Source: Methylocapsa aurea
GTDB lineage: Bacteria; Pseudomonadota; Alphaproteobacteria; Rhizobiales; Beijerinckiaceae
Direction: 5' to 3'
DNA: 63,783 bases
Assembly (NCBI RefSeq): GCF_000746085.1
Contig: NZ_JQKO01000020.1
Span: 1-63,783 of the forward strand
This document shows positions 3,173-62,654 of the stretch, in pieces. A program made the translations under genes and the position numbers. Numbering within the stretch: position 1 is the first letter of the stretch; each line of letters begins with the position of its first letter. Under the pieces are notes generated by a model. That model was not told the DNA's origin. It was given only the letters and a program-made list of their open reading frames with translations, and made no database searches.

Positions 3173-3799
3173 ATGCGCGGAGCGTGCGCGGTTTTCCTGA
3201 TCCTCGGTTTCCTCGTCTCCGGCGCGCAGGCGCATGGCGGATTGAGCATAGACAAGGATCAATGCATGTTAAGGATTGGTCCGGACCTTATGCATTTCAC
3301 CGGGTACCAGCCTCTCCAGACGACGCAGATGTTCTGCGAGGACATTCCTTCAGTTGGCGCCACGGTCATAGTTCTTGACGCCGTGGATTCCGAACTTCGG
3401 GACATGACCACCGAAGTCCGCATCATCAGGGACGTCGCTGCGCGGGGGATGACGGGACGGACGGGGGTTTTAAGGGACGATGAATTGTCGAGCGATTATC
3501 TGGACCCGCTCACAGTGTCCTATCTGCCGCCCAAACGCTATCCCACTGGCACATTGCATTTCGAGCATGTCTTCCAAGAGGCCGGCGCCTATATAGGCAT
3601 TGTCACGGCCAGAAACGATCATGGTCAGTACTATGTCTCCCAGTTCCCTTTCTCGGTTGGTCGAAGCTGGGTGAAAATCGGGGGCTATTACGCCCTCTTG
3701 GTCATAGGCATCGTCGGCGCGCTTTTCCTTTATTGGAAATTAGGCCTAGCGCAAGGCTGGGCTCCCGCGACGAAGACCTCGAATAAGCGGTTGCACTAG
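3173..3799 (+). CDS. pmo-linked secreted, membrane-anchored protein (candidate copper accessory)
   Basis: A 208-residue protein with a signal peptide ending in AQA at residue 20, so the predicted mature protein starts with His21-Gly-Gly. The N-terminal third holds potential metal ligands and a likely disulfide pair: Cys31, Met40-His41 (LMHFTGYQP), Met53 and Cys55 (FCEDIP). A beta-rich middle part is followed by one C-terminal helix (about residues 166-190) and a short basic tail inside the cell. It resembles conserved uncharacterised proteins I associate with pmo/amo operons; it is not an obvious PmoD. It follows pmoB on the same strand after a hairpin. The Shine-Dalgarno AAGGAGG is strong but 14 bases from the ATG, an unusually long spacing. 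A role in copper delivery or pMMO assembly is inference. Confidence 0.75.
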   Translation: MRGACAVFLILGFLVSGAQAHGGLSIDKDQCMLRIGPDLMHFTGYQPLQTTQMFCEDIPSVGATVIVLDAVDSELRDMTTEVRIIRDVAARGMTGRTGVLRDDELSSDYLDPLTVSYLPPKRYPTGTLHFEHVFQEAGAYIGIVTARNDHGQYYVSQFPFSVGRSWVKIGGYYALLVIGIVGALFLYWKLGLAQGWAPATKTSNKRLH

Positions 3800-3850
3800 A
3801 GCATGACGCCACAGAGATGCAGATATTTTGCTTTAAGTAGGCGCCAGCGG

Positions 3851-3936
3851 CGAGCGCTTCCCGATCCGATGGAGTCAGCTGATCGAAAAAGGATCGCTCA
3901 GAATCCAGAGATTGGAGCATGCCTGAAGGCATGCCG
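3851..3936 (+). repeat. intergenic palindromic repeat, family A
   Basis: Begins GAGCGCTTCCCGATCCGATG and carries the family's broken inverted repeat, then a tract ending ATTGGAGCATG. Inside is a perfect palindromic hairpin at 3917-3934 (GCATGCCT/AGGCATGC, two-base loop). Other copies are at 11302, 12354 (reverse), 22843, 28542 and, partial, 34319. The rest of the gap between 3800 and 4208 shows nothing I recognise. Confidence 0.7.
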
Positions 3937-4208
3937 TGGTCCCGGTCATTCATGATGACCGTAAACCATGCTATCGGGTAGGCATCCGGCTCCGTGGTCG
4001 GCGTTGAGCTTTTTGGAAGACGTAATTGGATCGCCCCTGACAGAAATTGCGTTGTCGTCGCCTTGGCCGGATCTTCCCGCGCCGCTGCCATCGAAGCGCT
4101 GAGCTGCGTTTTCCTCAATTCCGACGTGACTAGCGCCGTCGCGCCAATGCTAGGCGCCTGGCTGGTTTCGGATCGGAAAAATTGTCTCCTGAACGACTGA
4201 GTTGGTCC

Positions 4209-4742
4209 ATGAAGATTAAACTGCCTCCCCTCATTCATAATTTCATCGGCGTCATGGAAGGCGATGTCGGTCCGGAGGTTTTGCCAAAGTCAAATTCGTT
4301 CTTGGTGGCGAGCCTAGGCTTTTTCGCGCTGGTCGAGTTTGGCGTCCGTCTCCTCACTCATTCGGCGATCGGCGCAGTGGGGATTGGCGTCAGCGCCACG
4401 GTGTTTTTGATCATTGTCGCCGCAATCAGTGCGCGCCTTCTCGGACGCAATGAGCGGCTGGTTCAGACGCTCATTGCGTTGGCGCTAGCCGGAGCCATCG
4501 TGGCGCTCGTTAATTTTGTTTGTCGCACCTTTCTCAAGGTCGGGTTTCATCTGATGCTTGAGGACGAGGCGCCTGTCGAGTCCATAACAAATTTTCTTCT
4601 CTTTCCAATATTCCTGTGGAATATTATAGTATATGCGGTGATCTTTCGCCGCGCTTTTCCCATCGGGACATTGTTGGCGTTTGGTCTATCCTTCAGCTGC
4701 GTTTTGATGCTGTTCTTTGAAATTCCCCACTTCTTTAAATGA
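4209..4742 (+). CDS. hypothetical integral membrane protein
   Basis: A 177-residue protein if started at the ATG at 4209; an in-frame TTG at 4182 would add nine residues, but neither start has a convincing ribosome site. Four to five hydrophobic segments are visible (about residues 35-52, 60-80, 92-112, 130-148 and 152-172), separated by short charged loops such as ARLLGRNERL. I recognise no catalytic or transport motif. It stands alone between the pmo operon and the long gap before pyruvate carboxylase, on the same strand. Codon use resembles that of a real gene less strongly than its neighbours, but the hydrophobic periodicity supports expression as a membrane protein. Confidence 0.55.
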   Translation: MKIKLPPLIHNFIGVMEGDVGPEVLPKSNSFLVASLGFFALVEFGVRLLTHSAIGAVGIGVSATVFLIIVAAISARLLGRNERLVQTLIALALAGAIVALVNFVCRTFLKVGFHLMLEDEAPVESITNFLLFPIFLWNIIVYAVIFRRAFPIGTLLAFGLSFSCVLMLFFEIPHFFK

Positions 4743-5332
4743 CCAGGCAGGAATCGTCGACGGATAGCCGGGCGATGCTCGGATTTGCTTCTAGGAGCGA
4801 TATCCTTGTTTCGCCAACAAGGATGGGCGCCTTATCCCGCGTTGGACTAAGCCCGCGGCGCGTCGCGGTCCTTCGTCCCATCCGCGGCGTATGGGGACGC
4901 AAGTTCGGCCCGATCTCTGGCGCTTGAGGCAGCTTCAAGGACAATCGAGGCTTTGGCGAAAACGCAGAAGGCTTCTCCTCTGGATTTGCTGCGTTTCTTG
5001 TCGCCGGATTCTCTAAACCGGCCGCCGCCGCCGCTCTTTCGGTGGCCGCTTGGCTCCAAGAAGTCGCATTTTTTGGGCAGATCGAGTATTTTGACCGTCA
5101 ATGCGCCTTGCGCCCATGGGTCTGAAATCTGTGCGGTAGGGAAAACGGCAAGACAATTGCGTCGAAAGCGGCAACCGCGTTTCGCCCGAATCAAATGCTC
5201 TCTCTCAAGGCGTTTCCCAAACTGCGGCGCATCGCCGGCCCGGGCCTCATGACGGGCGCGGACTTGGCGGTTCGGCGCAATGCATGGTTTCCAGCGGCGG
5301 GACATGCCGCAGCCCGATGGTAGCGAGTGCCT
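4743..5332. other. 590-base gap without recognisable gene
   Basis: Open frames on both strands here are short and compositionally biased, and none resembles a known family. No tRNA-like T-arm or Rho-independent terminator was seen. It presumably contains the promoter of pyruvate carboxylase; a TTGACC near 5088 has no clear -10 partner. Confidence 0.4.
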
Positions 5333-8300
5333 ATGGCCCGAATTCGTCGTCTATTGGTCGCCAACCGATCCGAGATCACAATCCGGGTTTTCCGCGCCGC
5401 CACCGAACTGGGGATTCGAACGGTGGGGGTCTATGCGGAAGAGGATAAGCTTTCGCTCCATCGCTTCAAGGCCGACGAAGCCTATCAGATTGGCGTTGGC
5501 AAGGGGCCGCTTGACGCCTATCTGTCGATCGACGAGGTCATCCGCGTCGCCCGGGACGCGAAGGTCGACGCGATCCATCCAGGCTATGGCTTTCTATCGG
5601 AAAGCCCCGAATTCGCCGAAGCTTGCGCCGAAGCCGGCGTCATTTTCATCGGTCCGTCGCCGCAGACCATGCGCGATCTCGGCAATAAGGTCGCGGCCCG
5701 GAACCTTGCGGCGTCCTGTGGCGCCCCCGTCATGCCGGCGAGCGGGCCGCTGCCCGAGGCGCCTGACGAAATCAAACGCCTCGCGCGAGAGATCGGCTAT
5801 CCGGTCATGCTCAAAGCCTCCTGGGGCGGCGGCGGGCGCGGCATGCGGCCGATCGAGAGCGAGGACAAGCTTCTTGACGCCGTGCTCAGCGCAAAGCGCG
5901 AGGCCAAGAACGCCTTTGGCAAGGACGAGGTCTATCTCGAAAAGCTGGTGCGCCGGGCCCGCCATGTCGAAGTTCAGCTTCTTGGCGACATGCACGGGAA
6001 TCTCGTGCATCTCTTTGAACGCGATTGCTCGATTCAGCGCCGGAACCAGAAGGTCGTCGAGCGGGCTCCCGCGCCCTATCTCGACGATGCGACCCGCCAG
6101 GGCCTTTGCGATGCGGCGCTGAAAATCGGCCGCGCGAGCCACTATGTCGGAGCCGGCACTGTCGAGTTCCTGATCGACACCGACACTGGCGCTTTCTATT
6201 TTATCGAAGTCAATCCGCGCATCCAGGTCGAGCATACCGTGACGGAAGTGGTGACCGGCCTCGATATCGTGAAGGCGCAGATCCGCATCGCCGAAGGCAA
6301 GCGCATCGGCAAGCCGGAAGAGACCGGCATTCCGCGGCAGGAGGACATCCGCCTCTCGGGGCACGCCTTGCAGTGCCGGATCACCACGGAAAATCCGGAA
6401 AATAACTTCATTCCTGACTATGGACGGATCACCGCCTATCGCGGGGCTATGGGCTTTGGCATTCGCGTCGATGGCGGCACGGCCTATTCGGGGGCGATCG
6501 TGACACGGTTTTACGATCCGTTGCTCGAGAAGGTCACAGCTTGGGCGGCGACGCCGGAAGAGGCGATCGCCCGGATGGATCGGGCGCTGCTCGAATATCG
6601 CATCCGCGGGGTCGCGACGAATCTCGCCTTCTTGCATAATATCATCAACCATCCGCGCTTTGTCGCCAATGATTATACGACGCGTTTCATCGACGAGACC
6701 CCTTCGCTGTTTGATTTCAAGAAACGCAAGGACCGGGCGACGAAGCTGCTCACCTGGATCGTCGACGTCACGGTCAATGGCCATCCCGAAACGCGGGGCC
6801 GCGCCCGTCCGCCGGTAACAGCGCGCCCGCCGATAGCCCCGCAATTTCCTGTCGCAGCCGCGATCGCTCCCGGAGCGCGCCAGCTTTTTGAAACGCTTGG
6901 GCCGAAAAGCTTTGCGCAATGGATGCGCAATGAGGAGCGCGTGCTCGTCACCGACACCACCATGCGGGACGCGCATCAGTCGCTCATCGCCACGCGCATG
7001 CGCACCCGCGACATAGCGGCGGCCGCTGAGGCCTACGCCAAAGGGCTGCCTCAGCTTCTCTCGCTCGAATGCTGGGGCGGCGCGACCTTCGATGTCGCGA
7101 TGCGGTTTCTGTCCGAAGATCCTTGGGAGCGGTTGGAGCTCGTGCGCGCGCGGGCGCCAAACCTTTTGACGCAAATGCTGCTGCGCGGCGCCAATGGCGT
7201 CGGCTACACCAATTATCCCGATAATGTCGTGAAATATTTCGTCCGCCGCGCCGCCGCCGGCATAGATCTTTTCCGCATTTTCGATTGCCTCAACTGGGTC
7301 GAGAACATGCGCGTCGCGATCGACGCCGTGGTGGAGACCGGCAAGCTCGCCGAAGGCGCAATCTGCTATACCGGCGATATCCTCGATCCCGACCGGGCGA
7401 AATTCTCGCTGAATTATTATGTCGGCGTCGCCAAGGAACTGGAGCAGGCCGGCTGCCACATCCTCGCGATCAAGGACATGGCCGGCCTGTTGATGCCGGC
7501 CGCCGCGCGGGTTCTGGTCAAGGCGTTGCGCGAAGCCGTCGGCCTGCCGCTGCATCTTCATACCCATGACACCTCCGGGATTTCCGCGGCGACGGTCCTC
7601 GCCGCCGCCGACGCCGGAGTCGATGCGATCGACGCCGCGATCGATTCGATGTCGGGCACGACTTCGCAGCCCTGCCTCGGCTCCATCGCCGCCGCCTTGC
7701 GGCACAGTCCCCGCGACACCGGCCTCGATCCGGAGGCTATTCGCCAGCTCAGCTTCTATTGGGAGGCGGCGCGGGCGCAATACGCCGCCTTCGAGAGCGA
7801 TTTGAAAGCCGGCACGTCCGAAGTTTATTTGCACGAAATGCCGGGCGGCCAATTCACCAATCTCCGGGAGCAGGCGCGCGGGCTCGGCCTCGAATCGCGC
7901 TGGCATGAGGTCGCCAAGGCCTATCGCGCGGCCAATGATCTTTTCGGCGACATCGTCAAGGTGACGCCCTCATCTAAGGTCGTCGGCGACATGGCGCTGA
8001 TGATGGTCTCGCAGAATCTAACGCCGGAAGACGTGCTCGATCCCAAGCGGGAGATCGCCTTTCCGACCTCCGTCGTCGAGATGTTGAAGGGCGACCTTGG
8101 CCAGCCTCCGGGCGGCTGGCCGGCGCCGGTGCAGGAGAAAGTGCTGAAGGGCGAAAAGCCGATCAATGGTCGCCCCGGCGCCCTTTTGCCGCCTGCCGAT
8201 CTCGCCGCCGCGCGGGCGGAGGCCGAAAAGGCGTGCGGGCGTCATCTTACCGACGACGAGCTTGCCTCTTATCTGATGTATCCGAAGGTTTTCACGGAAT

Positions 8301-8779
8301 TTTCCGCCACCGTCCGCCGTTTTGGACCGGTGTCGGTGCTGCCGACGCCGGTGTTTTTCTATGGGATGCAACCGGGCGACGAGATCGCGATCGAGATCGA
8401 ACCCGGCAAGACGCTCGTGCTGCTCTTGTTGACGATCGGCGAGACCGATGACGAGGGGCAGGTCAAGGTTTTCTTCGAGCTGAACGGCCAGCCGCGCATC
8501 ATCAAGGTCCAGAACCGTTCCGCGCATGTCAAAGTCGTCGCGCGCCGCAAGGCGGAGGAGGGAAACGATTGCCATGTCGGCGCGCCAATGCCGGGGGCGG
8601 TCTCGACGATCGCGGTGCGCCAGGGCCAGGAGGTGAAGGCAGGCGATATTGTCGCGACGCTCGAAGCGATGAAGATGGAGACTGCGCTCCATGCCCCGCG
8701 CAATGGCAAGGTCACGGAAATTCTGGTCGCGCCGGGCGCCCAGATCGACGCCAGGGATCTTTTGATGGTGTTGGAGTGA
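5333..8779 (+). CDS. pyc: pyruvate carboxylase
   Basis: Biotin-dependent cytosolic enzyme carboxylating pyruvate to oxaloacetate with ATP and bicarbonate. About 1,148 residues, the normal single-chain length. Order: biotin carboxylase (LLVANRSEI at the start, glycine-rich ATP loop KASWGGGGRGMR near residue 165, FIEVNPRIQVEHTVTE near 290), carboxyltransferase beginning TDTTMRDAHQS near residue 540 with CYTGDI and AIKDMAGLL, then a C-terminal biotinyl domain with EAMKMET (biotin Lys about 1114). The ATG at 5333 is preferred over GTG at 5327; the ribosome site is weak. In a methanotroph it would replenish C4 acids for the TCA and serine cycles (inference). The gene is monocistronic by spacing. 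Confidence 0.96.
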   Translation: MARIRRLLVANRSEITIRVFRAATELGIRTVGVYAEEDKLSLHRFKADEAYQIGVGKGPLDAYLSIDEVIRVARDAKVDAIHPGYGFLSESPEFAEACAEAGVIFIGPSPQTMRDLGNKVAARNLAASCGAPVMPASGPLPEAPDEIKRLAREIGYPVMLKASWGGGGRGMRPIESEDKLLDAVLSAKREAKNAFGKDEVYLEKLVRRARHVEVQLLGDMHGNLVHLFERDCSIQRRNQKVVERAPAPYLDDATRQGLCDAALKIGRASHYVGAGTVEFLIDTDTGAFYFIEVNPRIQVEHTVTEVVTGLDIVKAQIRIAEGKRIGKPEETGIPRQEDIRLSGHALQCRITTENPENNFIPDYGRITAYRGAMGFGIRVDGGTAYSGAIVTRFYDPLLEKVTAWAATPEEAIARMDRALLEYRIRGVATNLAFLHNIINHPRFVANDYTTRFIDETPSLFDFKKRKDRATKLLTWIVDVTVNGHPETRGRARPPVTARPPIAPQFPVAAAIAPGARQLFETLGPKSFAQWMRNEERVLVTDTTMRDAHQSLIATRMRTRDIAAAAEAYAKGLPQLLSLECWGGATFDVAMRFLSEDPWERLELVRARAPNLLTQMLLRGANGVGYTNYPDNVVKYFVRRAAAGIDLFRIFDCLNWVENMRVAIDAVVETGKLAEGAICYTGDILDPDRAKFSLNYYVGVAKELEQAGCHILAIKDMAGLLMPAAARVLVKALREAVGLPLHLHTHDTSGISAATVLAAADAGVDAIDAAIDSMSGTTSQPCLGSIAAALRHSPRDTGLDPEAIRQLSFYWEAARAQYAAFESDLKAGTSEVYLHEMPGGQFTNLREQARGLGLESRWHEVAKAYRAANDLFGDIVKVTPSSKVVGDMALMMVSQNLTPEDVLDPKREIAFPTSVVEMLKGDLGQPPGGWPAPVQEKVLKGEKPINGRPGALLPPADLAAARAEAEKACGRHLTDDELASYLMYPKVFTEFSATVRRFGPVSVLPTPVFFYGMQPGDEIAIEIEPGKTLVLLLLTIGETDDEGQVKVFFELNGQPRIIKVQNRSAHVKVVARRKAEEGNDCHVGAPMPGAVSTIAVRQGQEVKAGDIVATLEAMKMETALHAPRNGKVTEILVAPGAQIDARDLLMVLE

Positions 8780-8925
8780 ATGCCTTTGTTAGGGTCCCGG
8801 AAAGCCTCGCGGAACGCGAAAGCTGGTCTTTAGAATGTACTCCTGGTTGAGGGCGCCCTTGCGCCAACGGCTCTATTGAGGCAGATGATTCAAAGGCGGT
8901 AGCGGCGGCCGAGGGATCCTTGCTC

Positions 8926-10146
8926 ATGGGTGCGACTGATCAGGGCGATGCGCCCATTGTAGAGCCGAAGCCTGACGACGAAGGTCCGGACATGACCCTT
9001 CGCGCCTTGGAGCAGCGCATCCGGCAGCAGGAAATCCTGGCGGAGCTTGGCGTATCGGCGCTCCAGGGCGCTGCGCTGGATCAACTGCTGACGGACACCG
9101 TGCAACTCACCGCTGAAGGCCTGCGCGCCGAGTTTTGCAAGGTGCTCGAACTGATTCCATCGGAAAACCGCTTCCTCGTTCGTGCGGGCGTGGGTTGGAA
9201 TCCGGGCATCATCGGCGTTGCGAGCGTCGGCGCGGACCTCGCTTCTCCCGCAGGATTCGCCCTGCGAACCGGCAAACCCGTCATTTCGAACCATCTCGAG
9301 AACGAAGAGCGATTTAGGACGCCCGAAATACTTCAGCAGCACGGCGTCCGTCGCGCCATGAACGTCATTTTGCAGGGCGACGGAAGGCCGTTCGGGGTTT
9401 TAGAGGTCGACAGCCGTTCTGAAAACGAATTCGTGGAGCACGATCTCGCGTTCTTGCAGGGCGCGGCCAATATTCTAGGCATGGCGATCGAGCGGGAGCG
9501 ACACGAGCGCAGACTCAAGGCAGCGCTGAAGCGAGATCAGGTGCTTCTTAAAGAGATGAATCACCGGGTCAAGAACAGCCTGGCGATCGTCGGGAGCATG
9601 CTGCACCTTCAAGCCAGAGAAGTCGGCAATGAGGAACTGGCGGGACATCTGAATGAGGCGTCGCGACGGGTGGCGGCTGTTGGGAGAGCTCATGACCAGA
9701 TCTTCTACGGATCAGACGTAGAGCGGATGGACATTGGCAAGTATATTCAAGCGGTTTGCAAGGATTTGGATGAGAGCGTCCTCCACTGCGACGTTTCCAC
9801 CGACGTGGAGGAGGGAATTGAGATTTCGACCGACAGGGCCATCGCGACTGCGATGATCGTCAATGAGCTCATCGCGAACGCCGCTAAATACGCGTATCCA
9901 AATCAATCTGGCGGAACGATCTTCATCAAGGTTTCCCGTTCAGGAGAGAGGGATTTTGCCGTCGCTGTTCGCGATCAAGGCGCCGGACTGCCCGCAAACT
10001 TCGCGCTTAATAGCGCCAAGGGACTGGGCATGCGCATTATCACTTCCTTTGCGCAGCAATTGAACGCAACCATTGCGGTGCGTCCTCAAAATCCCGGGAC
10101 GGAATTCGCGGTTTGCATTCCGCTCGGGGTCCCATCCACCCGGTAG
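8926..10146 (+). CDS. GAF-domain sensor histidine kinase (HWE/HisKA_2 type)
   Basis: Soluble sensor kinase of about 406 residues without membrane segments. An N-terminal coiled segment is followed by a GAF domain (about residues 20-185; SENRFLVRAGVGW and RRAMNVILQGDGRPFGVLEV are typical). A HisKA_2 dimerisation box holds the phosphorylatable His near residue 213 in MNHRVKNSLAIVGSMLHLQ. The ATPase domain shows NELIANAAKYAYP and DQGAGLP..GLGMRI. Start is ATG 8926 or the TTG six bases upstream. No response regulator is adjacent, so it is an orphan kinase. Proteins of this class often feed the alphaproteobacterial general stress response (PhyR) or light/redox sensing; the ligand here is unknown. 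Confidence 0.9.
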   Translation: MGATDQGDAPIVEPKPDDEGPDMTLRALEQRIRQQEILAELGVSALQGAALDQLLTDTVQLTAEGLRAEFCKVLELIPSENRFLVRAGVGWNPGIIGVASVGADLASPAGFALRTGKPVISNHLENEERFRTPEILQQHGVRRAMNVILQGDGRPFGVLEVDSRSENEFVEHDLAFLQGAANILGMAIERERHERRLKAALKRDQVLLKEMNHRVKNSLAIVGSMLHLQAREVGNEELAGHLNEASRRVAAVGRAHDQIFYGSDVERMDIGKYIQAVCKDLDESVLHCDVSTDVEEGIEISTDRAIATAMIVNELIANAAKYAYPNQSGGTIFIKVSRSGERDFAVAVRDQGAGLPANFALNSAKGLGMRIITSFAQQLNATIAVRPQNPGTEFAVCIPLGVPSTR

Positions 10147-10158
10147 ACCATCACCGAC

Positions 10159-11040
10159 TCATCGGTTCTTTGCCCCCGAATGGGGGCGGGCCGCCTTCTG
10201 ACTCTCGATCCGGTACGGATGGGCCGGATAAACGCCCAGAATTTTCAACTCCTTGCAGAAAAACGCGAGTTCCTCCAGCGCCCCCGCGAGTGCCGGCTCC
10301 TCGGGATGGCCATCGACATCGGCCAGAAATTGGGTGGCGGTGAATTCGCCTTCGACCATATAGCTTTCGAGCTTGGTCATATTGACGCCATTGGTGGCGA
10401 AGCCGCCGAGCGCCTTGTAGAGCGCCGCCGGCACATTGCGGACCCGGAACACAAAGCTCGTCACGGTTGGCTCCGCCCTGGGCCGCGCCCATTTGGGGCT
10501 TTTCGAAAGCACGACGAAACGCGTGGTGTTATGCGGCTCGTCCTCGATGTCGGCTTTGAGCACGTCGAGCCCGTAGATCTCGGCGGCCAGACTTGTCGCG
10601 ATCGAGGCGCGCGACGCGTCGCCCCATTCCGCCACCTCCCGGGCGGAGCCCGCGGTGTCGCCCGTCACATGCGCCGCAAGGCCCAGCTTGCGAATGATCT
10701 TGCGGCACTGGCCGAGGGCGTGAACATGGCTATAGACGGATGCGATCGCATTCAGCCTCGCGCCCTTGAGGCCAAGCAATTGAAAATGAATCGGCAGGAA
10801 ATATTCGCCGACGACATAGAGGCTGGCGCTCGGCAGCAGGTGGTGGATATCGGCGACGCGGCCGGCGATTGAATTCTCGATAGGAATCATGCCGAGCCCG
10901 GCGGCGCCCTCCGTGATCGCGGTCAGCGCATCCTCGAATGTGGCGCAGGGGAGGGGCTCCCACTCCGGATAGACATTCTTGCAGGCGATATGGGAATTGG
11001 CGCCGGGCTCGCCCTGATAGGCGATCTTAGGGACGGTCAT
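10159..11040 (-). CDS. pheA: prephenate dehydratase
   Basis: Converts prephenate to phenylpyruvate in phenylalanine synthesis. 293 residues starting at the ATG complementary to 11038-11040 (MTVPKIAYQGEPGANS), with GAGAGG about 11 bases upstream. The PDT catalytic part includes GMIPIENSIAGRV and the essential Thr-Arg-Phe in NTTRFVVLS. A C-terminal ACT domain (from about residue 195, SFVFRVRNVPAALYKALGGF, then KLESYMVEGEF) would give phenylalanine feedback control. There is no fused chorismate mutase, as usual in alphaproteobacteria. It converges with the histidine kinase gene, with 12 bases between the stops. Confidence 0.95.
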   Translation of the reverse strand: MTVPKIAYQGEPGANSHIACKNVYPEWEPLPCATFEDALTAITEGAAGLGMIPIENSIAGRVADIHHLLPSASLYVVGEYFLPIHFQLLGLKGARLNAIASVYSHVHALGQCRKIIRKLGLAAHVTGDTAGSAREVAEWGDASRASIATSLAAEIYGLDVLKADIEDEPHNTTRFVVLSKSPKWARPRAEPTVTSFVFRVRNVPAALYKALGGFATNGVNMTKLESYMVEGEFTATQFLADVDGHPEEPALAGALEELAFFCKELKILGVYPAHPYRIESQKAARPHSGAKNR

Positions 11041-11301
11041 TTTCTGCGGAAACCTCTCGCGCAAGCTGAAACCCGTAAGCCTATGGCATGTTCTGGAGCA
11101 ACAGAAAACGCCGTGGCGCGGTTCTCGCTAAGCAGCTCGCGTCGCCAAGAAGCTTGGGCGAGAGCGGCCGGCGACAAAAAGTAGCACAGGGCGCCGCTTC
11201 ATTTATGTTGCATTGCAATGCAGATGGCGTTTAATCAATGCTGCGCTGCAGCGACCGTCCAGGTTCCGCTTTGATTCGGGTTTGGGCGCCGCAGAGCGCC
11301 G

Positions 11302-11416
11302 AGAGCGCCTCCCGATTGGATCGACTCATCTGATCGAAAGGGAATCGCCTCAGAGTCAAAGGGTTGGAGCATGTCGCAAGCGAAACAGTCGATTGGTTTT
11401 TTAAGAACATGCTCTT
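11302..11416 (+). repeat. intergenic palindromic repeat, family A
   Basis: Starts GAGCGCCTCCCGATTGGATC and ends AAGAACATGCTCTT, matching the boundaries of the copy at 28542. It lies between pheA and the cytochrome-like gene and runs into the region just upstream of that gene. The remaining gap (11041-11301) shows no gene. Confidence 0.7.
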
Positions 11417-11472
11417 TGTCAAATGGAATGAACTCTAACAGCAGAGCTCCTTTGGTGGAATGTGGTGCGAAA

Positions 11473-47238: not shown

Positions 47239-47877
47239 CTACACCTCCGTGCCTTCCGCAAGGGCGAGCGCATCCTCTACATCGACGCCGAGGTATCGAA
47301 CGGTGCTTTCGATTTTAGTATGCCCGAGCAATATTTGCACGGCACGCAAGTTGCTTGTCTGTTTATAGATGATGGATGCCTTGGTTCGGCGAAGCGAATG
47401 CGTCCCATAGTCCTCCCGGCGTAATCCGATCCCGGTTACCCATTCGTCGACGAGGCGAGCATATTGCCGCGTGCTGATATGATCGGCTTGATCGATACGA
47501 CTTGCAAAGACGAAGTCGTCGAGCGCGCCGCCGCGCCATTCGAGCCATGCCAGAATACTGCCGCGAGCAGGTTCAAGGAGCTCGAACTGAACGGGGCGAC
47601 CGGTCTTCCGCTGAATAACGGTCGCGCGTGTACGAACCCGGCCGCCGCTGACGAGGTCGCTGATCTTGATCTTGACCTTGACAACGTCACACCCGCGGAG
47701 CTTGGCGTCGATTGCGAGATCGAACATCGCCCGGTCGCGAAGCCGCTGCTCTCGATCGAGCCAGAACCTGATGGCCCGGACCTGTTGTGGCTTCAGCGCG
47801 CGTTTCGCGCCAAGTTTCCGACCTGCATTCCATGGACGGCGCTCTTTGGCGCCCGGGTCGTATTCCGAGTGTCCCAT
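47239..47877 (-). CDS. short tyrosine recombinase/integrase
   Basis: 212 residues. Catalytic residues of the tyrosine recombinase family are visible: Arg in DLAIDAKLRGCDVV, HxxR in GTHSLRRTKAS, His in LLGHTKIESTV and Tyr in VRYLGVD. The N-terminal core-binding domain is much reduced, as in a group of short alphaproteobacterial integrases. It marks the start of a mobile-element-rich stretch, with an IS5-type remnant just upstream. Confidence 0.88.
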   Translation of the reverse strand: MGHSEYDPGAKERRPWNAGRKLGAKRALKPQQVRAIRFWLDREQRLRDRAMFDLAIDAKLRGCDVVKVKIKISDLVSGGRVRTRATVIQRKTGRPVQFELLEPARGSILAWLEWRGGALDDFVFASRIDQADHISTRQYARLVDEWVTGIGLRREDYGTHSLRRTKASIIYKQTSNLRAVQILLGHTKIESTVRYLGVDVEDALALAEGTEV

Positions 47878-57933: not shown

Positions 57934-58041
57934 GATTCACCCGCACGCTGGCCTTCAAGTTCCAATCGCTTCGGGAGCTCATCTGTCTTAGTGCTTAACT
58001 CAACCGGCCAGGCGTCCCGTCAAACGGGGTGCACACCATAT

Positions 58042-58419
58042 TCACTCAGCCTTTTTCTTTTTGGTGGGTTTGGCGCCTTTAGCGCCACCTTCACCCGGAT
58101 CCGCTGAGAAATAGGCCTCATATTTATTCTTCTTGCCATCGAATTCCGCAGCCTCTGGCAGGGCCTTACGTTTGAACGCAAGATTTGGCCAGATCTTCGC
58201 CATGTCGGCGTTGAGCTTGGGGAAAATACCAAGGTTCTTGGCAGTATCGGCCTTAATCGCTTGGGCCGGACATTCTGGCTCGCAAACACCACAGTCGATA
58301 CATACATCCGGATCAATGACCAGCATATTCACGCCCTCGTAGAAACAATCGACGGGGCAGACCTCCACGCAGTCTGTGTATTTACATTTAATGCAATTAT
58401 CGAGCACGACAAAGGTCAT
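58042..58419 (-). CDS. fdxA: 7Fe (3Fe-4S/4Fe-4S) ferredoxin FdxA
   Basis: 125 residues from ATG 58419 with GGGAGG upstream. N-terminal [29 protein letters not shown] and a second cluster [17 protein letters not shown] match the seven-iron ferredoxin of alphaproteobacteria. The usual FdxA ends at about 110 residues; here a Lys/Gly-rich tail (PTKKKKAE) extends it. A low-potential electron carrier, and the likely partner of the large flavoprotein upstream on the same strand. Confidence 0.95.
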
Positions 58420-58599
58420 AACTGCCTCCCGGTGGCGCACTCGGTCCGCGCCAACGTGATTATCGGTGTGCTAATCCCTTTGCAGGGCCGCCGCAAGGAC
58501 GTTGCGTGCTGCCTTAAGTTAAACGCCAGCCGTTGAGACTCGCAAGCTGTTTTTTTCGTCAGGGCCGCCAAGTTTTTTCTGTGTCCTTAAAGGGGGCGA

Positions 58600-58800
58600 G
58601 TTTGCGGTGGTCAATTCTTGAAATAGGAGTTTTTGCTTCCAGATAGGCATCGCGTCGAAGCCCCGGTGCGACGACCCGCAAATGCGGAGCTGCCTTTCAA
58701 AGTGCGATCGTCAGTATGTCTCCCGGGACAACCGAATGCGCCGCAGCTTTGATCCTGATCGACCCCCATTAACGGGTCCAGTTTCAATGTTAGTGCATTG
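58600..58800 (-). pseudogene. remnant of an S4-domain RNA-binding protein (Hsp15-like)
   Basis: On the minus strand one frame reads SIRIKAAAHSVVPGDILTIAL, then a TGA stop, then KAAPHLRVVAPGLRRDAYLE in the same frame. This matches the latter half of the S4 domain and the tail of Hsp15-type ribosome-associated proteins. Just upstream VNG is in another frame, indicating a frameshift. Inactive; limits are approximate. The rest of the gap from 58420 to 58931 shows nothing. Confidence 0.5.
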
Positions 58801-58931
58801 ATGGCCTCGGGGCCAGCGCGGGCGGCGTAGCTGGTCGGCATTGCGAAGCTGCCTGCGCGGGGTCATGGCGGGCACGAAGACCTCGGGCGCGGGCGCCCGC
58901 AATCAGCGAAGCGCCGGCCTGAACTCCGCAT

Positions 58932-61900
58932 TCACTCAGCTGCGAGGTGCTCACGCCAGCCCAATTGACGCAGAGCCCGGTCGATCCATAACTTTGTCAG
59001 CTTCTCCTGCACGTTGTTTTGCGAGAGACGTTGGCGAAGGCTGGCGAAATCGACACGGTCGAGCGCCTGATCCTGGTTGAAGCAGGAGAACACGACCGTC
59101 TCGGCCCCGGTGCTCGGATCGCGATGAAGCTGGAGACATTGCCCGCAGATTTCTTTCATCGCGCATTGCATCGGCGAGTTGATCGATCCGATCGCGGCGT
59201 GAGACGCTTTCAGCAGCGGCTTCAACACACCATGCCGCGCCTTGGCCACGGCGTTCATCATGCCGTCCGACCCGATCGCAATGATGCGATCGACCTCGTC
59301 GAGCGGGATCGCCGGCGTACCCAGCTTACCCGATCCATAGGCCTCGATCGCTTCGACAATATTGCAGACGATGGTCGAATCCTGCGGCCGGGTCGGTTTG
59401 AAGCCGGGGGCTTCGTCCGAGCACCACACGATGACATCGGCCGCACGCTCGATCTCTTCGATCTTGTAGCGGTCGATCAGACGTTTGTAGCCGGCGACAT
59501 AGATAACCTTCGATCCCGCCGCGCGAAGCGCTTGCCCGATCGAGAACAAGACCGCATTGCCGAGACCGCCGCCGACAAGCAGCGCGGTCTCAGCCGGCGG
59601 CGTTTCGGTCGGCTCGCCCGTCGGTCCCATTAAGATGACAGGCTCGCCCGGCTTCAAATGCGCGCAGAGGTCCGACGAACCACCCATTTCGAGGACGATC
59701 GTCGACAGAAGACCCTTCTCCTTGTCGACCGAAGCGCCGGTCAGCGCTAGGCCCTCCATCATGAGCGTCGTGCCGCCGGTACGGGGCGCCAAGGCTTCGA
59801 AGTTCTGCAAGCGATAGAATTGTCCCGGCTCGAAGGCGCGCGCCGCGAAGGGCGCCCGGACCGTAACTTCGACGATTGTCGGAGTCAGGCGTTCGACCGA
59901 TTGCACGGTGGCCCGCAACCCCTCGTTCATCGCCGCGGCGAGGATCGCCGGCGTCACGACCGTATGCGGAATCGACGTCATTTTATGGCTGACGACCGGA
60001 TAGCCCAATTTCGCGCTGGCCATGGCCTTCACGACATTGCCGGCGAAGCTCGGATGCAGGTCGCCGAAGAAGCTCACGGCTCTTCCGTCGAGCCGCGCGC
60101 TCATCAACACATCAACGGTGTCGGGCTTGCAGGATTTTTCCGGGCTGACGGGCGAGCCGTCCTCGCCGTAGGCCTGGAAATAGCGGCCGTCGAGGACGAC
60201 ATTGTCGGGGTCTTCGCGGCCGAGCACCGTGTTTGGCTGGGTTCCCGCCGCCACGATGATGCAGCGCGCGGGCAGCGCGACCTGCTCGCTGGTTCCGTCG
60301 GCCGCTTTGCGCGATACAACCAGAGCTTCCGCCGCGCCCCAGCGGTCGACCTTGACCTGCTCGGGCGTGAGGCCCTCCGCGAAGCGGATGCCTTCCTGCA
60401 TGGCCAAAGCCACTTCTTCATGGTTCAGGGTATAGCTCGGCGCGTCGATCAGACGGCGGCGATAGGCCAAAACCACGCCGCCCCATTGCTCCAAGAGATC
60501 AGTAATACGAGGCTTCCGTCCTTCCGCCGAAGCGGCCTTGCGCTCCTGCCGGATGGCTCTCGCATGTGTAATGAATTCGTCGGCGATCTCTTGCTCGGCC
60601 GGCGACCAGACTGAACGGACCAGTGACTCGCCATGTTCGGCGACAAGCGTTTCGTAGCGGACCAGGAATTTCTCGACCTGCACGGGATAGTAGGCCAAGG
60701 CCTCGGTGCCGGCATCGATCGCGGTCAGGCCGCCGCCGATCACCACAACGGGCAGGCGGATCTGCAGATTGGCGATCGAATCCGCCTTGGCGGCGCCGGT
60801 CAATTGCAGGGCCATCAGGAAGTCCGATGCCTGCCGGACGCCGGGCGCCAAGCCATTCTTCATCGGGATCACTGTCGGACGCCCTGCCCCTGCGCAAAGC
60901 GCAATATGATCGAAGCCGAGTTCGAAGGCCTTATCGATGGTCAGCGTGCCGCCGAAGCGAACGCCGCCGATCATGGTGAACTGGCTGCGGCGCTCCAACA
61001 GCAGGCGAATTATCTTCAGAAAGTTTTTGTCCCAGCGGACAGTGATGCCATATTCCGCGACACCGCCGAAGCCAGCGCCGGACCGCGTCTCTAACGGTTC
61101 GATCAAGCCCTTCACGTCGTAGACCGGCTCGAACGGCACCCGGAGGCCGTGTTTTTCGACGCCGGACAAAGCCGGATCGAGCGGCTCGATCTTCAATCCA
61201 TCGACCGCGACGATGCTGTGACCTTCGTTCATCAAATGATGCGACAGCGTGTAGCCCGCCGGTCCGAGACCGACGACAAGCACTTTGTAGCCGGTCTCCG
61301 CCTTCGGCACAGGACGGCGAAGATTGAGTGGACTCCAGCGGGTCAGCAGCGAATAGATCTCGAAACCCCAAGGAAGGGACAGCAGTTCCTTCAGGGTTTG
61401 CGTCTCGACCTGCGGGATGTCGACCGGCTCCTGCTTTTGGTAGACGCAGGACTTCATGCAATCGTTGCAGATGCGGTGCCCAGTTCCCGCGCACATGGGA
61501 TTGTCGACCGTGACGATCGCGATCGCGCCGACCACGAAGCCGCGTGTCTTCACCAGATTCATCTCGGAGATTTTTTCTTCGAGCGGACAGCCGTTGAGCG
61601 GCACGCCGAAAGCGCTGCCCTTGAAGCCTGGCTTTTCCTTGTCCTTCAATCCGGTGGAGCAGCTGTCCCTACCCTGCTTGTGGCACCAGATGCAGTAATT
61701 GGCTTGATCGAGCGCGCCGCGCAGATCCATGCCGTGATCGGTCAGCGCGAAGCCTTCGCGATGCCGCCAATGGTTTCTTGGCAGATGCGCCTGAATGACG
61801 CCGTCGACCACTTCGGTCTCGATCGGAACGAGATGTTCGGGATTGAGCTTGTGCGGCACTTTGAACAATACGCCGGACTTGTGAATCGCGTGGCCTGCTT

Positions 61901-62426
61901 CGGAAAGCGTCGCCCAGGCGGCGTAGCTCTCCGCTAGGTCAAGCGCAGCTTCGTTCGCTCCGTCGTCGGCGTCGAGCCACTTCTGCACGTGGGACGCGTA
62001 GCTGAGTTCGGTGAGCGGTTCGCCGAACAGCTTTTCGAGGTCGGCCCGGACCGCTGGTCCGTCGATAGCCTCGGCCTCTTCCGGCTCGACGCCTTTGACC
62101 GCACGGCGCTGTACGAACAGCCGCTTGACCGTATAGATCGGCGCCAGTTCATCGTGGCGCGCCCGCATCGCCGAAATCTCGCCGGATATTCCGAAGAGCC
62201 GGCCGATAAAGTCCTCGACATGCGGCGCCACGTCTATGATCAGATCCGACTGGCTTTTGGCGTCGAGGGACGAGGGGTCCGCACGTCCGGCCGCCAAACG
62301 ATCGTGAAGCGCAACGTCGCTTTCGGCCAGATGTTTGATGAACGCCTGATCGATCGCAGCCGTCCCGTCGACGGTATAGAGCTGCTCAAAGCTAAAGCCC
62401 AGTCCGAGATTAAGCTTATGCGCCAT
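58932..62426 (-). CDS. large fused flavoprotein: GltD-like plus PyrK/NfnA-like oxidoreductase
   Basis: 1,164 residues, start MAHKLNLGLGFSFEQLYTVD. An N-terminal region of about 380 residues has a helical part and then a cysteine-rich cluster region (YCIWCHKQGRDSC, NGCPLEEKI, MCAGTGHRICNDCMKSCVYQ) expected to bind Fe-S clusters. A GltD-like FAD/NAD(P) module follows (KVLVVGLGPAGYTLSHHL; second Rossmann VVVIGGGLTAIDAGTEA; AAGTQPN). The C-terminal 270 or so residues are a ferredoxin-reductase/PyrK-like part (FEPGQFYRLQN, LLVGGGLGNAVLFSIG) ending with a [2Fe-2S]-like Cys set CAMKEICGQCLQL...FSC. The order equals NfnB+NfnA in one chain. No membrane segments. Exact electron donors are unknown. Reverse strand; fdxA lies 510 bases downstream. 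Confidence 0.85.
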   Translation of the reverse strand: MAHKLNLGLGFSFEQLYTVDGTAAIDQAFIKHLAESDVALHDRLAAGRADPSSLDAKSQSDLIIDVAPHVEDFIGRLFGISGEISAMRARHDELAPIYTVKRLFVQRRAVKGVEPEEAEAIDGPAVRADLEKLFGEPLTELSYASHVQKWLDADDGANEAALDLAESYAAWATLSEAGHAIHKSGVLFKVPHKLNPEHLVPIETEVVDGVIQAHLPRNHWRHREGFALTDHGMDLRGALDQANYCIWCHKQGRDSCSTGLKDKEKPGFKGSAFGVPLNGCPLEEKISEMNLVKTRGFVVGAIAIVTVDNPMCAGTGHRICNDCMKSCVYQKQEPVDIPQVETQTLKELLSLPWGFEIYSLLTRWSPLNLRRPVPKAETGYKVLVVGLGPAGYTLSHHLMNEGHSIVAVDGLKIEPLDPALSGVEKHGLRVPFEPVYDVKGLIEPLETRSGAGFGGVAEYGITVRWDKNFLKIIRLLLERRSQFTMIGGVRFGGTLTIDKAFELGFDHIALCAGAGRPTVIPMKNGLAPGVRQASDFLMALQLTGAAKADSIANLQIRLPVVVIGGGLTAIDAGTEALAYYPVQVEKFLVRYETLVAEHGESLVRSVWSPAEQEIADEFITHARAIRQERKAASAEGRKPRITDLLEQWGGVVLAYRRRLIDAPSYTLNHEEVALAMQEGIRFAEGLTPEQVKVDRWGAAEALVVSRKAADGTSEQVALPARCIIVAAGTQPNTVLGREDPDNVVLDGRYFQAYGEDGSPVSPEKSCKPDTVDVLMSARLDGRAVSFFGDLHPSFAGNVVKAMASAKLGYPVVSHKMTSIPHTVVTPAILAAAMNEGLRATVQSVERLTPTIVEVTVRAPFAARAFEPGQFYRLQNFEALAPRTGGTTLMMEGLALTGASVDKEKGLLSTIVLEMGGSSDLCAHLKPGEPVILMGPTGEPTETPPAETALLVGGGLGNAVLFSIGQALRAAGSKVIYVAGYKRLIDRYKIEEIERAADVIVWCSDEAPGFKPTRPQDSTIVCNIVEAIEAYGSGKLGTPAIPLDEVDRIIAIGSDGMMNAVAKARHGVLKPLLKASHAAIGSINSPMQCAMKEICGQCLQLHRDPSTGAETVVFSCFNQDQALDRVDFASLRQRLSQNNVQEKLTKLWIDRALRQLGWREHLAAE

Positions 62427-62654
62427 TCAAAATCCTATCGGCGAGAGAGACGGTTCAGTTTGCCGAAGCTCGAAATGCATAATTCAAACCAGATCCTCTG
62501 CGGCGGAATGTAGCAAAGTCCGAGGTTTGGGTACAAGCCAAATGCGGCTCGATAAATTGATGTACAGCCGCCCTGTCCTTTGTCGAGGTTGGCGTTAGAT
62601 GCGAAGCGGGACAGCCCAAATAGCCCGCGCGCCGCGTCCTTCATTCACTATTGA

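Follow-up and report, generated by a model that had tools for sequence, protein, structure and literature searches.

NfnAB is a two-subunit enzyme of anaerobes that exchanges electrons between NADH, NADPH and ferredoxin. We describe a single-chain protein of similar build from Methylocapsa aurea, encoded in a stretch of 63,783 nucleotides (contig NZ_JQKO01000020.1, positions 1 to 63,783; hereafter the window) by the minus-strand gene P0001 (58932..62426), which is followed on the same strand by fdxA (P0002, 58042..58419), a gene for an FdxA-family ferredoxin. In published work, the signatures of NfnB are the motifs RCx2Cx4Cx3CPV and GRVCPQExQCx3C and the arginine R201 at N5 of the bifurcating flavin adenine dinucleotide (FAD), and those of NfnA are ERxPxT and DGTGMCGxCRx10CV (PMC6405883, PMC10482914). 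Fused Nfn homologues with the module order found here were noted before as 'Pattern C' of Liang et al. 2019, in Actinobacteria, Alphaproteobacteria and Gammaproteobacteria, and are described there as uncharacterised (PMC6405883). A survey of bifurcating enzymes finds them nearly absent from aerobic cells with the exception of Fix, although aerobes account for 16% of those genomes in which it counts any homologue (PMC6085437).

Set beside these systems, the anatomy of P0001 supports a single-chain Nfn-like oxidoreductase that is paired with FdxA in several lineages, and bifurcation by this enzyme is plausible. To the earlier mention of fused homologues we add the family's own N-terminal domain, its altered ligands, the conservation of R464 and D322, and the pairing with fdxA, none of which we found in the open-access literature.

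Architecture of the flavoprotein

The gene layout given in the initial annotation is confirmed. P0001 is an open reading frame (ORF) of 1164 amino acids (aa) with an ATG start, and fdxA lies downstream of it across a gap of 512 bp, encoding 125 aa from a likely ATG start at 58419, behind a GGGAGG site. The product of fdxA scores 149.2 bits with the FdxA model NF045490, whose cut-off is 135, and its cysteines, as read by eye, follow the motif CxxC-x6/7-CxxxCP then CxxCxxCxxxCP; we take it to be a 7Fe-type ferredoxin.

The fusion of a GltD/NfnB-like and an NfnA/PyrK-like module in one chain, also proposed in that annotation, was borne out by profile and fold comparison. On P0001 the Pfam family Pyr_redox_2 scores 40.1 bits, over its cut-off of 26.1, and Fer4_20 stays sub-threshold (20.4 bits, cut-off 25.8), while PyrK- and NfnS-type models and chains align to residues ~840-1139. 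An AlphaFold2 model built from a 71-sequence alignment reached a mean pLDDT of 94.4 and a pTM of 0.93. Comparison of the family profile with the Protein Data Bank (PDB), together with Foldseek, places the NfnB-like module first (residues ~240-830, 59937..61709, minus strand), with two predicted [4Fe-4S] sites and Rossmann folds for FAD and NADPH, and the NfnA/NfnS/PyrK-like module second (residues ~835-1145, 58992..59924, minus strand), with an FAD fold, an NAD site and a presumed [2Fe-2S] site. The NADPH domain carries a mostly helical insertion at residues ~580-650 (60477..60689, minus strand), between the motifs GGGLTAID and YRR.

When PDB chains were ranked by Foldseek E-value, Nfn subunits came first (NfnI-L, Xfn, NfnS, and NfnB and NfnA of T. 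maritima), with TMt values of 0.74 for NfnI-L (5jfc_L), 0.77 for Xfn (5vj7_A), 0.75 for 4ylf_B and 0.85 for 4ylf_A. NfnI-L and Xfn of P. furiosus match the middle part of P0001, and the C-terminal part superposes on NfnS (5jca_S) with a TMt of 0.91 and a root-mean-square deviation of 2.7. Lower ranks were taken by GltD (2vdc_G, 0.72; 6s6s_E, 0.70) and PyrK (5ksw_B, 0.80). The profile comparison separates Nfn from GltD more clearly than the TM-scores do: in the search of PDB sequences, NfnL-type chains scored 100 and 93 bits with the family profile, NfnS scored 85 and GltD 55, and the best match was Xfn (5vj7_A, 100.4 bits).

Residues 1-236 (61719..62426, minus strand) form a separate, mostly helical domain, which when modelled alone reached a pLDDT of 92.9 and a pTM of 0.78, and for which no relative was detected in Pfam, among PDB sequences or among PDB folds (best fold E-value 2.8). 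The initial annotation had called the N-terminal part cysteine-rich; a cysteine-rich region does exist, yet it belongs to the NfnB-like module, where it spans residues 245-327, and no cysteine occurs ahead of residue 245 in the protein. Compared alone with the PDB, the cysteine region gave only a chance match (E 0.76). Across 80 genomes of the class, comprising 40 carriers of the large gene and 40 others, the N-terminal domain was present in 42, namely all carriers (frames of at least 1035 aa) and two supposed non-carriers, and no clear stand-alone gene for it was seen. Because the match in those two genomes (G165 and G182) sits at the end of a contig, they probably carry a cut copy; both were left among the non-carriers in the counts below.

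Conserved residues at predicted cofactor sites

Conservation was counted in a family alignment of 114 rows. Seven cysteines (245, 248, 256, 280, 320, 323 and 327; 61446..61694, minus strand) are invariant, and they retain the seven-cysteine pattern of NfnB, although the first motif is more widely spaced here. Position 322, immediately ahead of Cys323, carries an acidic residue in every row (113 D, 1 E), so it may possibly serve as an acidic ligand of the proximal cluster. Arg464 (61035..61037, minus strand), which aligns with the NfnL residue R201 that hydrogen-bonds to flavin N5, is likewise found in 114/114 rows; the genome's own GltD has lysine at this position. The four cysteines of the presumed [2Fe-2S] site (1088, 1094, 1097 and 1115; 59082..59165, minus strand) are kept in 110 rows, and the four rows without them are cut (L137, L143), frame-broken (L005) or unmatched beyond residue 816 (L140). 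The frame-broken gene, from a Methylocapsa bog bin (L005/L024 4720-8135, G005 contig C16), is split over two reading frames near query residues 943-964, through either assembly error or decay. In the YRR motif, a candidate for the two arginines that bind the NADP phosphate in NfnAB, R656 is present in 112/114 rows and position 657 is R or K in 110/114, and the NAD-site glycines 952-954 are kept in 108-109 rows, with four gaps.

Thus the initial annotation's expectations of conserved Fe-S ligands and of a second FAD site both held, the latter as two flavin folds in the predicted structure, and the binding of the corresponding cofactors is predicted. Two canonical NfnAB signatures that were tested fail, and P0001 is therefore not filed as NfnAB; it most likely works like NfnAB.

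Distribution of the family

The nearest named model, NF005128/PRK06567, covers residues 6-978 with 740.7 bits, below its curated cut-off of 1072, which none of 385 genomes of the class reaches. Its name is 'putative bifunctional glutamate synthase subunit beta/2-polyprenylphenol hydroxylase'; neither PRK06567 nor the two full phrases of the family name together were found in the open-access literature, in which shorter forms of the phrases occur in 7 papers. Carriers of the family, at E<=1e-100, make up 85 of the 385 class genomes, source genome included. A genome_contigs pattern search returned 289 stretches encoding a relative, and all locus counts below use the best 80 of these 289, which span Alphaproteobacteria, Betaproteobacteria, Acidobacteriota and one Chloroflexota-labelled bin (bin labels can be wrong). 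The closest copy among these 80, 95% identical, is that of Methylocapsa acidiphila B2, of the same genus; the source genome is a Methylocapsa relative. In a near-relative search of 40 genomes, 4 carry the large gene, the source genome among them, and the other 7 of the 11 genomes listed gave only weak matches to other flavoproteins.

PRK12779 may be the model for Pattern C; P0001 scores 67.5 bits against it (cut-off 1519). Two family carriers, G186 and G092, have in addition a separate pair of neighbouring genes that align with the NfnB part and the NfnA part of PRK12779, with scores under the cut-off of that model. If that pair is Nfn, the pair and the single-chain family are not interchangeable.

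Association with fdxA

The link between the large gene and fdxA is real and not universal. In the near-relative set (the source genome and 39 relatives, with completeness of 90% or more and contamination of 5% or less in 34/40), FdxA of the P0002 type (80-100% identity) occurs in 4/4 carriers and 0/36 non-carriers, whose FdxA proteins are at most 71% identical to P0002; the Fisher value of 1e-5 overstates the link because three of the four carriers belong to one genus. Both genes are present in the carrier G023, where they lie 20 kb apart. This genome has a single FdxA match at E<=1e-15, of the P0002 type; G000, G005 and G011 have a second, housekeeping-type copy as well.

Direct adjacency is found in Methylocapsa, in a Caulobacteraceae bin (L040), in a Burkholderiales bin (L092) and on plasmid pTcM1 (NC_010600.1). 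On the plasmid, 148 bp separate fdxA from a P0001 homologue downstream of it, which is 43% identical to P0001 and in which the eleven cysteines, D322 and R464 are all conserved. If an assumed FdxA density is used and loci are taken as independent, chance adjacency in three lineages of 80 loci is unlikely, with an expectation of 0.06-0.11 and P of 3e-5 to 2e-4. Weak FdxA-like matches were also seen in L082, just behind the gene (36%, E 6e-4), and in L017 (33%, E 3e-5). Across the class, FdxA is found in 38/40 carriers and 36/40 others, mostly as one copy, and so copy count does not separate the groups and is uninformative.

We also considered horizontal transfer of the pair. The stretch common to the window and the M. 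acidiphila region (58008..62621, minus strand, 91.5% nucleotide identity) ends close to the two genes, and within 39 kb around the pair in M. acidiphila nothing else is in common with the window at E<=1e-20. The large gene is slightly closer between genomes than GltD (95 vs 89% identity for G000-G011; 86 vs 81% for G000-G023; 83 and 92%, in two pieces, vs 83% for G000-G005). Transfer is not proven by these observations. A phage-integrase-family protein is encoded at 47239-47877 on the minus strand, about 10 kb from the pair.

Gene neighbourhoods and co-occurrence

Beyond fdxA, the surroundings of the family differ between lineages. One operon type, found in six betaproteobacterial loci (L054, L056, L059, L067, L076 and L080) and on pTcM1 (3794-11468), combines the Nfn-like gene with genes for a flavoprotein, a HEAT protein, a 2x[4Fe-4S] protein and a GntR regulator, the last identified by eye in the six loci; fdxA is part of it everywhere except in L054. 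The flavoprotein of pTcM1 shares 67-70% identity with those of the six loci, and the two copies that were scanned match PRK08275; the closest PDB chain to the pTcM1 copy is the alpha subunit of 3'-phosphoadenosine 5'-phosphosulfate (PAPS) reductase (8a8o, 212 bits). The six loci add an importer between the operon genes and the Nfn-like gene; the substrate-binding protein of this importer in L056 is SsuA-like, below cut-off. On pTcM1 this operon type sits on a mobilizable plasmid.

In five Dongia-type loci (L038, L055, L064, L066 and L079; families scanned in L066), the gene lies near MetF, a methyl-tetrahydrofolate (methyl-THF):corrinoid methyltransferase and an AcsV-like corrinoid activase (5/5 each), accompanied by MetV in 4/5, DUF1638 in 4/5 and a PF13769 protein in 3/5. 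Five Nitrotoga loci (L075, L083, L090, L091 and L094; families scanned in L091) place it immediately ahead of pntAA-pntAB-pntB, which encode the proton-translocating transhydrogenase, and in a sixth, cut short, the first pnt gene is visible. In eight betaproteobacterial loci (scanned in L086), folD lies within 0.5 kb upstream. Each of these neighbourhoods comes from a single lineage and does not count as independent proof. What the reduced ferredoxin serves appears to vary by lineage, with the PAPS-reductase-like flavoprotein operon and corrinoid methyl transfer as examples.

Comparison of the 40 carriers with the 40 other genomes separated the groups neither by PntB (36/40 vs 32/40) nor by MetV (5/40 vs 4/40). 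We rejected the idea that the family replaces plant-type ferredoxin reductase: an E. coli Fpr-like gene occurs in 3/40 carriers and 6/40 others at E<=1e-29, a cut chosen after viewing the list (6 vs 9 at 1e-10), with thioredoxin-reductase-like ferredoxin reductases outside this test.

Proposed electron-transfer model and alternatives

Our preferred reading, with moderate confidence, is that P0001 resembles NfnAB in both build and mode of action and acts as an NAD(P)H:ferredoxin oxidoreductase in a single chain. Pyridine nucleotide and ferredoxin probably exchange electrons through it; true bifurcation or confurcation is plausible but rather less likely than not. From the architecture and the residue conservation we infer which cofactors are bound, the choice of partner, the direction of flow and bifurcation. 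NADPH would bind the GltD/NfnB-like half and hydride would pass to the FAD of that half; one electron branch would then reach ferredoxin, here the product of the neighbouring fdxA, by way of the two [4Fe-4S] clusters, and the other would cross to the NfnA-like half, where the [2Fe-2S] cluster and a second FAD would pass electrons on to NAD+.

A number of observations weigh against this model. In the fold comparison, NfnL (0.71-0.77) exceeds GltD chains (0.65-0.72) only slightly in TM-score, and StnC and dihydropyrimidine dehydrogenase chains rank between Nfn and GltD/PyrK; moreover, the divergent 1129-aa member L140 (G278) has no match beyond residue 816, the PyrK-like module included. Among the ligands, the CPQExQC motif, with its glutamate ligand of the proximal cluster, is absent and the family has C-N-D-C there, the [2Fe-2S] aspartate of NfnA is replaced by Cys1088 in the spacing C-x5-C-x2-C-x17-C, and the a-FAD strand ERxPxT is half kept (E891 in 112/114 rows and T896 in 108/114, with R changed to G and P to A). 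Arginine at the 464 position also occurs in two other GltD-like proteins (L006 and L012) and is thus not Nfn-exclusive, and StnC has the same N5-position arginine at a flavin described as non-bifurcating (PMC10482914). As for the partner, the genomic ferredoxin link that the initial annotation looked for in relatives stands for the four adjacent cases above, yet fdxA lies within 1.5 kb of the large gene in only 4/80 loci, two of them from Methylocapsa. ORFs with a ferredoxin motif reach 1.8 per 100 kb near the gene (4 in 221 kb), a density scarcely above the 1.4 per 100 kb at greater distance (13 in 934 kb, 11 of them in one betaproteobacterial operon type). In the window itself, the two genes are separated by the 512 bp spacer, and a promoter and terminator scan was uninformative.

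The alternative that survives best, although we consider it somewhat unlikely, is a non-bifurcating NADPH:ferredoxin reductase, in which the NfnB-like half alone drives ferredoxin and the PyrK-like half has another acceptor or a regulatory role. Xfn (5vj7_A), which we take to be NfnII, is the best profile match of the family. NfnII of P. furiosus is a reported precedent for such an enzyme, and the all-cysteine [2Fe-2S] site would be without the high potential ascribed to the aspartate-ligated NfnA cluster (PMC6405883). Against this count the conservation of the NAD-site glycines and of both flavin folds, and the invariance of R464.

Going further than the NfnAB-like model, one could picture a separate class of single-chain bifurcating transhydrogenases, widespread in aerobic bacteria and marked by an acid-ligated proximal cluster and an all-cysteine [2Fe-2S], in which proton-motive force would yield low-potential ferredoxin by way of PntAB-raised NADPH (2 NADPH giving NADH and reduced FdxA). 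The pnt genes next to the Nitrotoga copies and the presence of the gene with its own FdxA in methanotrophs lie behind this proposal, which we regard as unlikely and speculative.

A dedicated donor to a specific reductase, such as the flavoprotein resembling PAPS or adenosine 5'-phosphosulfate (APS) reductase or a MetVF/corrinoid activator, would make ferredoxin a mere intermediate in some hosts. The operons of pTcM1 and the six betaproteobacterial loci and the methyl-transfer genes of the five Dongia-type loci, four with MetV, speak for it, but the contexts vary by lineage, MetV does not co-occur with the family, and none of these genes was seen beside the window gene; we judge this reading quite improbable.

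Nitrogenase in particular, one client suggested in the initial annotation, fares far worse. Methanotrophs of Methylocapsa's family often fix nitrogen, but nifH over cut-off is found in 3/40 carriers (with one fragment in a fourth) and 1/40 others (Fisher 0.62) and is not enriched, the nif genes of the source genome itself not having been searched, so that a general role in nitrogenase supply is very unlikely. A glutamate synthase small subunit or glutamine-converting enzyme, which the family name, the GltD-like fold and a genome paper (PMC5481527) would suggest, is the least credible reading of all, as no glutaminase or synthase domain appears among the profile matches of P0001, gltD lies elsewhere (contig C3) beside a GltB-like ORF identified by eye, the genome's own GltD has lysine at the Arg464 position, and Nfn chains top the fold ranking.

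The consequences of the name are visible in that paper, which takes 'glutamate synthase/polyprenylphenol hydroxylase' literally and reads a Neorickettsia helminthoeca protein with the PRK06567 family name as a converter of glutamine to glutamate (PMC5481527); if that protein is a member of the P0001 family, the reading is probably wrong. More broadly, a conserved single-chain Nfn-like family occurs in about a fifth of the sampled class genomes and in other groups, some of which are aerobic, and might supply such cells with low-potential ferredoxin. The fdxA pair makes the proposal testable with two purified proteins.

Relation to described enzymes

StnC shares with P0001 a GltD/NfnB-like NADPH module within a chain of 1172 aa, but its second half is NuoG-like, not PyrK-like, and its proximal cluster has a lysine (PMC10482914). 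The module folds of GltD and PyrK both recur in P0001, whose sequence and fold nevertheless rank weaker against GltD than against Nfn, and beside which no GltB is encoded; PyrK, the electron-transfer subunit of dihydroorotate dehydrogenase B, likewise ranks weaker than Nfn, and no PyrD lies beside P0001. The [2Fe-2S] site of PyrK is all-cysteine, as at the Cys1088 site of P0001. Pattern C, compared by description and not by sequence, is also a single chain with the NfnA part C-terminal, and the P0001 family differs from it in having its own N-terminal domain. From NfnAB, P0001 differs in being one chain in the order B-A, in its extra 236-aa helical domain and ~70-aa NADPH-domain insertion, and in having cysteine for aspartate at the [2Fe-2S] site and no CPQExQC motif; it shares with NfnAB both modules and their folds, the seven cysteines of the [4Fe-4S] pair, the N5 arginine and the YRR motif of the presumed NADPH site.

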